DNA of 36,611 nt, from IMG/VR virus record IMGVR_UViG_3300036715_000692, positions 1-36,611 of that record. The stretch is one strand, 5' to 3'. Source of the stretch: a virus. The notes below the pieces were generated by a model. The model was not told where the DNA came from. It made no database searches and saw nothing but the letters and a program-made list of their open reading frames with translations. The translations under genes were made by a program, and so were the position numbers. This document shows, piece after piece, positions 4,932 through 10,048 of this stretch (position 1 is the stretch's first letter; each line of letters starts with the position of its first letter).

Positions 4932-4960
4932 ATTATATAAGGAAAATAAAAAGATGTCAA
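4932..4960 (-). promoter_or_regulatory. Perfect sigma70 consensus promoter
   Basis: TTGACA (4955-4960), 17 bp, TATAAT (4932-4937). It drives the operon 4902 to about 3314 and lies immediately beyond the terminator of the giant RNA. Confidence 0.9.
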
Positions 4961-4968
4961 CAGGAAAC

Positions 4969-4997
4969 AAAAAAGCCCACATAATTTATATGTAGGC
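4969..4997 (-). terminator. Rho-independent terminator of the giant non-coding RNA
   Basis: An 8-bp stem (4975-4982 with 4990-4997) with a 7-nt loop is followed on the minus strand by six T. One pair is G-U when read on the minus strand but would be C-A on the plus strand, which supports minus-strand transcription. Confidence 0.85.
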
Positions 4998-5747
4998 TTC
5001 CTTGCACTGCTTTACTATTCTCTAATATTATATCATCTATATTACATTTCGGATATTTTAGTATCTGAAAGTGGTACGGGCATATATCGCCCTATTGGGG
5101 TGGGCTAGGTACCTTTGAATAAAATCTCCATGGCAAGTAAAGTCGCTCAAGTTTATGTTATCAAGACCTTACATCTTTACATGTAAGACCATAAAAGTAT
5201 ACCATGTTGGTTTGGCGATGTCATAACCGATCATCTCCCAACAGTGGGTTGTGTTCTATACACAATACTAACACGGCGAGAATCTCCCTGTTTCCAGTGG
5301 ATCCCGAACGATTCTACAAACCGTGCAGTTTCGAGACTTTCATTCCTGAAGAAATCGGGGTCTCTCATCAGTTGTGACCATTATTCTATTAAGTGTTTAT
5401 CGACGCTCCCGTCTATTCGGACCTTAACCGACCAAAGAACGCGATGATCATTCCAATCACATGCCCGCATATATTACACCGTGCTTCTTGGGTGGGACAC
5501 GGTCATATCCTTCTCCGGATAGTCGTTTAATTTCTAAGGGGAATTGAAACCCCGAACTAGCAAATATAAGATTTCTAGCGCCACACCTTTATAATATATG
5601 GATACTTCAATAGTAGAGCCACATATTATGACAGAAATTAAAGGAAGATGCATTGCACAGGGTGGGATCATTGGCGCAGCATCCTATTCCTATGCTTCCG
5701 TGCGTCAAATTATCTACAATGCACCTACCTTTAATCACTGTCTAACT
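4969..5747 (-). ncRNA. Giant structured non-coding RNA (~780 nt), GOLLD/ROOL-like candidate
   Basis: No credible gene exists between 4997 and 5787. A perfect promoter (5754-5782) and a terminator (4969-4997) on the same strand define a transcript of about 780 nt. A 5' domain is closed by three consecutive helices: 5738-5742 with 5630-5634, 5728-5735 with 5637-5644, and 5717-5723 with 5649-5655. Further hairpins include 5168-5174 with 5181-5187 and a two-part stem at 5073-5113 (ggtac/gtacc enclosing gggc/gccc). Length, phage setting and nearby tRNAs match the GOLLD and ROOL RNA classes, but I cannot confirm a covariance-model match. RNase P RNA and canonical tmRNA motifs were looked for and not found. 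Confidence 0.75.
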
Positions 5748-5753
5748 GTATTT

Positions 5754-5782
5754 ATTATACAACTCTACTGCTATTGTGTCAA
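5754..5782 (-). promoter_or_regulatory. Perfect sigma70 promoter of the giant RNA
   Basis: TTGACA (5777-5782), 17 bp, TATAAT (5754-5759). It begins five bases after the ligase stop codon, and the predicted +1 is near 5747. Confidence 0.9.
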
Positions 5783-5786
5783 AAGG

Positions 5787-7145
5787 TTAAACAATAGCAG
5801 CAGCAAATTGAGCTTCGATCTCTGCAAATGTATCTGCAACAGTCTTATCTTCACGCTCCTCAATTAAGCGTGGTAAGAACAGCGAGTGTTGTTTGCCAGC
5901 TTTAGTCGAATACATGATACCATTCGAACGGATAGTAACAATCTTACCCAACCATTCTTCTCTATGATTACTGATATAGATACGCAGCTCATCACTTATG
6001 CCTGATGCACCACATTCAAGTAAAGCATCTGCACTCTGACAAGTAAGTGATCCAAATAGATCCTTATTCTTATTCTTACCGGGTGCAAAACCCACAACAA
6101 CAAGTTCGATGTCCATAACTTCTTTCTGCTTGACCAAATCCTTCGATGTACCGTCTTTCCATATTGCATGGCGACTCTTACATACAGTACCTTCTAATTT
6201 ACGCTTGCGCATTTCACGATAGTGTGCTAACGCTTCATCGGGACTATAGACAATCTTTGTTTCAATCAATTTAATTTGATCAGAATTGCTTGCATCCAGT
6301 TGCCACTCCAGCAATGTGTATCGTTCGTGATAAGAAAGATCGTATTTGCCTTTTGGAACAAAGGATGACAGCGGGATCTGATCCCAACAATCATACACAA
6401 CAACTTCGCCAGCACCTAGTTCGCCACCTTTAGAAAGAGAATTCAAAATTCCATTACCAATCTGTCGTTCTAGCATTACACCGTTGCGATATACAGTAAG
6501 CTCACCGTGTGTGCTTGTTCCGTGTGTAAAGGTGTCTTTAGCTGCCTGTTCGATACCCAACGCACCGGATGGCATTAGTGTGCCTCCACGCGAAGTAACC
6601 CAGACAAAGCCATCCTGACGCACATTCACATACGCAAACATTCCATCTGCTTTGATCTGTGAATATACGCCCTCGGCCCAATCCCATTCTTCCATATTTG
6701 ATTTCTCTGGAAGAGAGCATCGCATGTAAGGTGTGACAGGAATCTCGTATGCTTCATTAATTCCTTTTACAGATTTATTCACCGTGGATTCGCTAAAGCC
6801 TGAACCCAAGTCTTTTATTAAAATCTTTCGATACCAGCCGTTCCATTCTTCGTTGGTAGCCATATCCATGTATTGTCTGATCAATGTAGCAGCATGATGG
6901 CCGGTGGCTTGACGTTTTATAAGTGCATTTGCTAACACTGTAAAAGCATTAAAGCTGAGACCGGCACCGTCGTCACCGAAGCGCTCTGGCACCTGTTTAA
7001 CACCGAATGTATCAATGTTATCCAATGCATAACGCAAACCAGCAAAGAAATCGTTGTTGCTTAATTTAGCTTCACGATTGATAACAGCTTCTTTGAACAA
7101 TTTGCTATTGTCGGATGCAATTTCTGCGATTAGTTTATGTGTCAT
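5787..7145 (-). CDS. ATP-dependent DNA ligase
   Basis: 452 residues from ATG 7145, which overlaps the upstream stop as ATGA. Nucleotidyltransferase motifs are in order: motif I KADG with the adenylated Lys165 (residues 165-168), Ia SRGG (185-188), III near STHGELTVY (211-219), IV LEGTVCKS (317-324) and V DLVKQK (336-341). An N-terminal helical region precedes the catalytic core, and an OB-fold region follows (VVVGFAPGKNKNKDLFGSL), as in T4-type ligases. It seals nicks during phage replication or repair. All catalytic motifs are intact. It is co-transcribed with the gene at 7142-7564. Confidence 0.93.
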   Translation of the reverse strand: MTHKLIAEIASDNSKLFKEAVINREAKLSNNDFFAGLRYALDNIDTFGVKQVPERFGDDGAGLSFNAFTVLANALIKRQATGHHAATLIRQYMDMATNEEWNGWYRKILIKDLGSGFSESTVNKSVKGINEAYEIPVTPYMRCSLPEKSNMEEWDWAEGVYSQIKADGMFAYVNVRQDGFVWVTSRGGTLMPSGALGIEQAAKDTFTHGTSTHGELTVYRNGVMLERQIGNGILNSLSKGGELGAGEVVVYDCWDQIPLSSFVPKGKYDLSYHERYTLLEWQLDASNSDQIKLIETKIVYSPDEALAHYREMRKRKLEGTVCKSRHAIWKDGTSKDLVKQKEVMDIELVVVGFAPGKNKNKDLFGSLTCQSADALLECGASGISDELRIYISNHREEWLGKIVTIRSNGIMYSTKAGKQHSLFLPRLIEEREDKTVADTFAEIEAQFAAAIV

Positions 7146-7564
7146 AATAACCAAATATTCTCTTTAAGAGCGAGTTTTTCATCCACGCTTAGTTTAGAAA
7201 TAACACCACGCGCAACAATAGTTCTTGCCGCCGCAGCATCCTGTTTTTCCTTCAAATTATTTATTGAATCCTGCACATAATTGACTTTCCATTCTTCGGA
7301 AGTATATGTCAGTGTTTCGTTTATACCGCCAGTTCGTGTTTCATAATGAAACTGCACACTCGGTCCAGTTGATGTAAGTGTTACATCCACTGAGATACCA
7401 ACCGAAATTGCCAATGCCTGCATATCCATCAGCCGCTTCGGCAATGATGCAAGATATGCAGCTTTCTCGATAGCTTCCTGACGTTTAGATTCTTCATTAG
7501 CCAATCGTTTAGCTTCGGCTGCTTCTATCCGTTTTATAGCGTTTTGTGCTTGTTTAGTGTCCAT
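7142..7564 (-). CDS. 140-aa coiled-coil protein on a leaderless mRNA
   Basis: Start ATG 7564 (MDTKQAQNAIKRIEAAEAKR) is chosen because the consensus promoter at 7571-7599 excludes the longer frame. Only six bases separate the -10 box from the ATG, so the mRNA should be leaderless. An N-terminal charged helix rich in Ala/Glu/Lys (about residues 5-45) is probably a coiled coil. A beta-rich middle and a C-terminal helix follow. It ends overlapping the ligase start. Function unknown; co-expression suggests a link with DNA metabolism. Confidence 0.78.
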   Translation of the reverse strand: MDTKQAQNAIKRIEAAEAKRLANEESKRQEAIEKAAYLASLPKRLMDMQALAISVGISVDVTLTSTGPSVQFHYETRTGGINETLTYTSEEWKVNYVQDSINNLKEKQDAAAARTIVARGVISKLSVDEKLALKENIWLL

Positions 7565-7570
7565 GTGTAT

Positions 7571-7599
7571 ATTATATGCGGTTAGATGGTAGTTGTCAA
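7571..7599 (-). promoter_or_regulatory. Perfect sigma70 promoter, leaderless
   Basis: TTGACA (7594-7599), 17 bp, TATAAT (7571-7576), six bases, then ATG 7564. It lies at the 3' end of the upstream paralog gene. Confidence 0.88.
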
Positions 7600-9963: not shown

Positions 9964-10048
9964 TGGTGCGGGTAGATGGGTTCGAACCTCCATGGATTTC
10001 TCCGGCAAATTTTAAGTTTGCTGCCTATACCTATTCGGCTATACCCGC
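9964..10048 (-). tRNA. tRNA-Leu (TAA)
   Basis: 85 nt including encoded CCA. The acceptor gcgggta/tacccgc pairs perfectly. The anticodon arm is gcaaa-cttaaaa-tttgc with anticodon TAA. There is a long class II variable arm, a GGTTCGAACCC T arm and discriminator A. It reads UUA codons, which are common in AT-rich phage genes. It lies seven bases downstream of the GIY-YIG gene. Confidence 0.95.

Follow-up and report, generated by a model that had tools for sequence, protein, structure and literature searches.

A modular phage RNA gene with a predicted embedded hammerhead ribozyme and tRNA-like elements

GOLLD (RF01998) and ROOL (RF03087) are phage-borne RNAs of about 800 nt or more with elaborate folds; they form RNA-only cages of unknown purpose, and GOLLD combines a conserved 3′ part with a variable 5′ part, sometimes with tRNAs in the linker (PMC12286853). 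For hammerhead ribozymes of prophages, a proposed role is the cutting of long transcripts into shorter units (PMC3088659). In phage T4, species 1 and 2 (rnaC and rnaD) are small, stable, separate RNAs in a tRNA array containing the homing endonuclease segB, and rnaC has a tRNA-like T-arm. Here we describe an RNA gene in a 36,611-nt stretch of viral DNA (IMG/VR record IMGVR_UViG_3300036715_000692; the whole analyzed stretch is hereafter called the window). Transcript processing by prophage hammerheads and the GOLLD/ROOL cages are both live comparisons for its product, and T4 rnaC/rnaD are the nearest analogue of its tRNA-like elements. Coordinates are positions in the window, the RNA lies on the minus strand, and L-numbers denote loci or contigs of other phages.

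We consider it probable that a large phage has here a self-contained gene for a non-coding RNA, and that the transcript cuts itself and acts as pieces rather than as a whole. Its own promoter would drive an RNA of about 780 nt composed of separately folding modules in the order 5′ domain, tRNA-like cloverleaf, two small conserved modules, type-I hammerhead, and a 3′ core that runs into the terminator. We assign the gene to a new RNA family whose parts are already known and which has been seen only in metagenomic phages.

Transcript boundaries, fold, and coding potential

The earlier note on this DNA had proposed a gene-free segment of about 780 nt flanked by a promoter and a terminator on the same strand, and both signals were recovered. 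A sigma70 promoter (TTGACA-17-TATAAT, 5782–5754) matches the consensus at 12 of 12 positions, placing the expected start near 5747, and an intrinsic terminator (17-bp stem plus T-run) lies at 5005–4967; the transcript deduced from these positions runs from about 5747 to about 4967. A promoter of the same type is found at the 5′ end in all seven close homologues (L003, L004, L005, L008, L016, L018, and L098). In a 5-kb scan, the number of promoter-like sites was not unusual (16 versus 14.9 expected), and only three of them were 12/12 matches. The two further perfect promoters, at 7571–7599 and 4932–4960 (both on the minus strand), lie in the same 5 kb as the RNA promoter, suggesting that such perfect matches are usual for this phage.

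The abundance of helices reported in the earlier note was borne out by the folding energy. The minimum free energy of the segment is −236 kcal/mol, which is below that of dinucleotide shuffles (z = −6.2 with 20 shuffles and −4.8 with 25). The homologous RNAs gave z values of −2.8 to −5.1, compared with −2.1 to +1.0 for nine control windows of the same length from the same genome. No reading frame of the window RNA was conserved among the homologues, and on the RNA strand the longest run free of stops spans 49 codons. Two antisense open reading frames (ORFs) had no meaningful tblastn match in the homologues (lowest E values 0.007 and 0.011, for matches of 16–43 residues). A short AUG frame following GGAGAUAUAUCC in L005, L008, and L016 was rejected as a conserved ORF since it is missing in the window and in L094.

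The suggestion that the RNA is GOLLD, ROOL, or a divergent member of either did not hold. A cmscan search of the whole window at Rfam gathering thresholds found two distant tRNAs and nothing else, and at E ≤ 10 the segment matched neither GOLLD, ROOL, tmRNA (RF00023), nor any hammerhead model; the homologue L005 likewise matched neither GOLLD, ROOL, nor tmRNA at E ≤ 10. GOLLD, ROOL, and every other Rfam family were thus rejected as its identity for lack of a covariance-model match, and matches to Thr_leader and trpB were discarded as covering the terminator hairpin only. The tRNA-cluster setting was not found either: the two window tRNAs, at 9964 and 12661, are 4–7 kb from the RNA, and no tRNA cluster adjoins it. 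When the segment was compared by blastn with a collection of 50,697 phage records, chance matches alone were returned, and a megablast search with 25 kb of window sequence found no relative there, indicating that this collection holds no close relative. We found no description of the RNA in the open-access literature.

The predicted hammerhead ribozyme

Between 5377 and 5260, the RNA contains a type-I hammerhead that, together with the tRNA-like cloverleaf at 5639–5529, was absent from the earlier note. Stem I is formed by 5376–5372 and 5265–5261 and stem II by 5364–5360 and 5337–5333. The core consists of CUGAUGA (5371–5365), GAAA (5332–5329), and the cleavage-site triplet GUA (5268–5266), with the predicted cut between 5266 and 5265. 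All the invariant features, namely CUGAUGA, GAAA, the A15.1–U16.1 pair (5267), and H17 (5266), are present. Each complete homologue displays CUGAUGA, a short stem, GAAA, a long-capped stem, a UA step, and a strand pairing with the one before CUGAUGA, in the order that defines a type-I hammerhead. The element shares with the type-I hammerheads of Rfam clan CL00010 the CUGAUGA...GAAA core, the NUH triplet (here GUA), the A15.1–U16.1 pair, three covarying stems, and an open-ended stem I. It differs from them in that stem III is capped not by a short loop but by a conserved piece of 60–85 nt (shorter in L029), and in that the ribozyme is embedded in a large multi-module RNA.

In order to avoid circularity, a covariance model (R1) was trained on L004, L016, L018, L029, and L096 only, with the window left out. 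R1 found the window hammerhead with 47.5 bits (E = 2.1e-8), as well as those of L005 (E = 1.6e-13), L008 (2.7e-12), and the jumbo phage L089 (3.5e-5). A contig scan with a loose hammerhead pattern gave at least 117 stretches; none of the 80 bacterial loci fetched passed a structure filter, and these were therefore used as negative controls, the best of which reached 21.6 bits (E = 0.05) with R1. When whole records were searched, one hammerhead per genome was found in the eight matching records. No hammerhead was found in T4 or in the five cultured phages with the nearest ligase/ATPase (PA5oct, hairong, DLP6, ACP17, and pf16).

Covariation in relatives was present. Since whole-module MAFFT alignments misplaced the variable stems, we instead delimited the modules exactly and relied on covariance models and alignment by hand. 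All the sequences are metagenomic phage contigs, and each module rests on five to twelve distinct homologues. For the hammerhead, twelve sequences were aligned, including L092 and L095, which are ordinary small hammerheads of other phages; the alignment was fitted to the structure, and hand alignment of the strands agreed for stems II and III. In this set, 98.2% of the cells are paired and 13 of 19 pairs are changed on both sides. The covariation score was 0.533 compared with 0.184 for shuffled alignments, none of 500 shuffles reached it, and structures slid along the same alignment were only 32–49% paired.

The Rfam gathering threshold is a curator's cut-off rather than a biochemical criterion; the window hammerhead does not reach it, as noted above, and the Hammerhead_3 match to the L005 core is weak (23.2 bits versus a threshold of 48.5). 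The canonical-looking small hammerheads of L095 and L092 were likewise missed at gathering. Ordinary small type-I hammerheads of other phages were observed at L092:8523–8594 (minus strand), L095:2095–2146, and L097:2371–2468 (minus strand), the latter two just upstream of a small gene.

On the favoured reading, the hammerhead would cut the RNA after position 5266, leaving a 5′ piece of about 481 nt that ends in a 2′,3′-cyclic phosphate and carries the cloverleaf, and a 3′ piece of about 299 nt that begins with a 5′-OH and carries the 3′ core. We infer that cleavage occurs in the cell, with product ends of this nature, and that the two pieces, not the whole RNA, would be the working molecules. 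A conserved post-cleavage hairpin (UUGU...ACAA) was considered as a lock of the cut product; it is present at a level not above that in shuffled sequences and is not claimed.

Several observations weigh against this reading. When the whole RNA is folded to minimum energy, the complete hammerhead junction is absent, and stem III of the window hammerhead has one bulged U. Cleavage may be slow, since stem I is only 5 bp long in the window and no tertiary contact between stems I and II was identified. Stem I is also mostly invariant among the homologues, which is partly a matter of ascertainment because the search patterns contained it. The exception is L089, recovered on the same contig as another module of the RNA (the CCCACC module described below), in which stem I is ACACAG/CUGUGU compared with ACACAA/UUGUGU and the core reads CUGACGA. 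To these points may be added that the cloverleaf lacks a CCA end, its 3′ end being AGAAAUUAAAC, and that the outer helix of the 5′ domain and the acceptor-like stem of the cloverleaf are in competition.

tRNA-like elements and other modules

The cloverleaf (TLS1, 5639–5529) comprises a 7-bp acceptor-like stem (AAUUUCU/AGAAAUU), two hairpins, and a last, T-arm-like hairpin (GGGG-UUUCAAUU-CCCC). Folded alone, it adopts a four-arm cloverleaf as its minimum-energy structure, as do the corresponding modules of four relatives. A second covariance model (R2), again trained without the window, found TLS1 with 52.7 bits (E = 1.1e-10). Nine of its twelve next-best, weak matches in whole phage records (14.7–25.8 bits) were tRNAs called by ARAGORN, most often tRNA-Arg(UCU). 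TLS1 itself (5529–5639) was not called a tRNA by ARAGORN or Rfam.

A second tRNA-like module (TLS2), which is lacking in the window, occurs in relatives and has acceptor, connector, and T stems. In its alignment, 99.3% of the cells are paired and ten pairs are changed on both sides; none of 500 shuffles was as good. The modules resemble the tRNA domain of tmRNA and tRNAs themselves in having an acceptor-like stem beside a T-arm, and TLS2 also shares the three-way shape of the tmRNA tRNA domain. In contrast to tmRNA and tRNA, they have neither a CCA end nor a tag reading frame, and Rfam matches them to neither of these families. L016 carries a canonical T-arm (AGCGG-UUCGAAU-CCGCU) in its 5′ module, within tRNA-like surroundings that neither Rfam nor ARAGORN called. 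An array in an unrelated phage (L099:4844–5686, also in L100) combines a TLS2-like element with a tmRNA and a tRNA, and further structured-looking DNA lies between these elements.

These modules, separated by AU-rich linkers, invite comparison with T4, and the RNA might be a tandem precursor from which RNase P or E and the hammerhead excise small stable tRNA-like RNAs similar to species 1 and 2. Besides the T-arm of rnaC and the endonuclease segB in the T4 array, endonuclease-like ORFs are found within the present RNA as well. We nevertheless regard a precursor of this kind as quite unlikely: no sequence similarity to the T4 RNAs was found, the modules here lack CCA ends, and their processing sites are putative. 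The T4 species also differ in being separate short RNAs without a hammerhead. In T4 (L090:1409–1672), rnaC folds strongly (z = −4.6) with its T-arm, and rnaD folds no better than shuffles (z = −0.8). On the self-cutting reading that we prefer, the cloverleaf would probably be read or processed by the tRNA machinery.

Upstream of the cloverleaf, the 5′ domain (5746–5630) is closed in the minimum-energy structure by three consecutive helices (5742–5717 with 5655–5630), as the earlier note had described. Positions 5639–5633 are used twice, as the 3′ strand of the outermost helix and as the 5′ strand of the acceptor-like stem (partner 5529–5535). The overlap is similar in relatives and may be a switch or a folding artefact. 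No sequence homologue of the 5′ domain was found; the relatives have other 5′ modules.

Downstream of the cloverleaf, the CCCACC module (5504–5445) was aligned with L003, L005, L008, and the jumbo-phage locus L089 (alignment A9). It consists of a stem (ACCGUG/CACGGU) around UCCCACCCAAGAAG, followed by AUGCGGGCAUG and a hairpin (UGAU-UGGAAUG-AUCA). Across the five loci, the loops of this 60-nt block around UCCCACCCAAGAAGCAC are nearly invariant and the stems differ in kind (ACCGUG/CACGGU, UCUGUG/CACAGA, and GUUGUG/CACAAC). The stems are paired in 27 of 30 cells, imperfectly in L008, which with five sequences only does not exceed strand shuffles. The adjacent two-hairpin module (5436–5396) was found with a degenerate pattern only in the phage of the window and in L011, from the 385-kb phage; its stems, read from the sequence, are UCGG/CCGA versus CCGG/CCGG and GACG/CGUC versus GACA/UGUC, respectively.

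The conserved 3′ core (5129–5038; alignments A11 and A14) is composed of GGAGAUUUUAUUCAAAG, a hairpin, CCACUU, a second hairpin, and AAAUGUAAUAUA. It follows the hammerhead, with GGAGAUAUAUCCAAAG and CCACUU, in nearly all the loci, weakly in L029. A model (R3) trained without the window found the window core with 28.6 bits; R3 has almost no structure, so the E value of 0.0018 is moderate evidence only. RNAalifold of five close 3′ cores gave seven pairs with changes on both sides, several of which are broken by L008.

Module exchange and the working form of the RNA

An ATP-dependent DNA ligase gene (5787–7154, minus strand; phrog_114, E = 2e-96) lies directly upstream of the RNA on the same strand and is its conserved neighbor; the RNA segment is bounded by this gene and by the next promoter (4960–4932). 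Homologues were reached through relatives of the ligase and through short conserved blocks in IMG/VR contigs. Two of the loci, L001 and L002, belong to the phage of the window itself (99.9–100%). Seven relatives have a promoter and, after it, a divergent form of the RNA, located behind the ligase or behind small genes after it: L003, L004 (210 kb), L005, L008 (identical to L009 and L013 across the RNA region), L016, L018 (101 kb), and L098 plus L096, which form one 48.5-kb contig. Three more contigs contain parts of the RNA: L029 (237 kb), L089/L011 (the 385-kb jumbo phage), and L094.

The complete versions give transcripts of about 780 to about 1370 nt; an inserted ORF forms part of the longest one. 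TLS1 is missing in L008, and the CCCACC module in L004, L016, and L018; the hammerhead and the 3′ core vary least. The modules, strung one after another, have been gained and lost independently, and in several relatives ORFs, encoding endonucleases or other products, were inserted between them. ORFs lie between or within modules in L003, L016, L029, L089, and L098, indicating that the transcript does not have to fold continuously as one unit. In L003 (6840–6883 and downstream), an HNH-type endonuclease-like ORF starts directly after hammerhead stem II and thereby breaks up the ribozyme core of this phage; the contig ends before the remainder. In L089 (837–2513), the CCCACC module, two ORFs, the hammerhead, and the 3′ core follow the order of the window spread over 1.7 kb, and one of the ORFs within the string is GIY-YIG-like. 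These endonuclease labels are our own reading of the sequences, with no family search behind them.

The retention of a hammerhead–3′ core–terminator unit directly downstream of ORFs in L029, L089, and L094 could mean that it mainly serves the 3′-end processing and stability of an upstream mRNA or other RNA, and that the upstream modules in the window are passengers. This seems unlikely to us, given the dedicated promoter and the conserved, covarying non-coding modules upstream of the hammerhead in the window and in L003, L004, L005, L008, L018, and L098; moreover, the window copy has no conserved protein frame.

It is likewise improbable that the RNA works intact as a giant assembly similar to the GOLLD and ROOL cages, with a hammerhead that is inactive, reversible, or used only for folding or as a late switch. 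The size is similar, the overall folding is strong, and GOLLD too joins a conserved 3′ part to a variable 5′ part and at times has tRNAs in its linker. Nonetheless, the RNA has no covariance-model similarity to GOLLD or ROOL and differs from them in its predicted self-cleaving ribozyme, its tRNA-like modules, and its location away from a tRNA island; the catalytic core has been kept while the stems changed; and in several relatives the string of modules is broken by ORFs, in RNAs of varying length. The earlier note's proposal of a large structured RNA, possibly of a new class, has gained homologues and covariation, in the hammerhead and in TLS2. Its view of a single giant unit stands as to the large structured transcript and is probably wrong in detail, because the hammerhead is expected to cut the RNA in two and the modules are separately gained and lost.

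We therefore return to a self-cutting, modular transcript. On balance we lean toward the view that it typifies a new class of self-processing large phage RNA, in which tRNA-like and other beads precede a hammerhead, embedded in the RNA, and a conserved 3′ core, the beads being exchanged between phages and endonuclease genes residing in the linkers. If so, it would be, to our knowledge, the first giant phage non-coding RNA with its own ribozyme. A role in translation, or in the protection of phage or host tRNAs, is our guess.

The function of phage hammerheads and that of giant phage RNAs, both open questions, meet here in one conserved gene. Its promoter, its predicted cut site, and the covariation support obtained out of sample make its cleavage and function testable. 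In addition, the tRNA-like modules tie such RNAs to translation or tRNA metabolism, providing a lead where GOLLD and ROOL lack a function.
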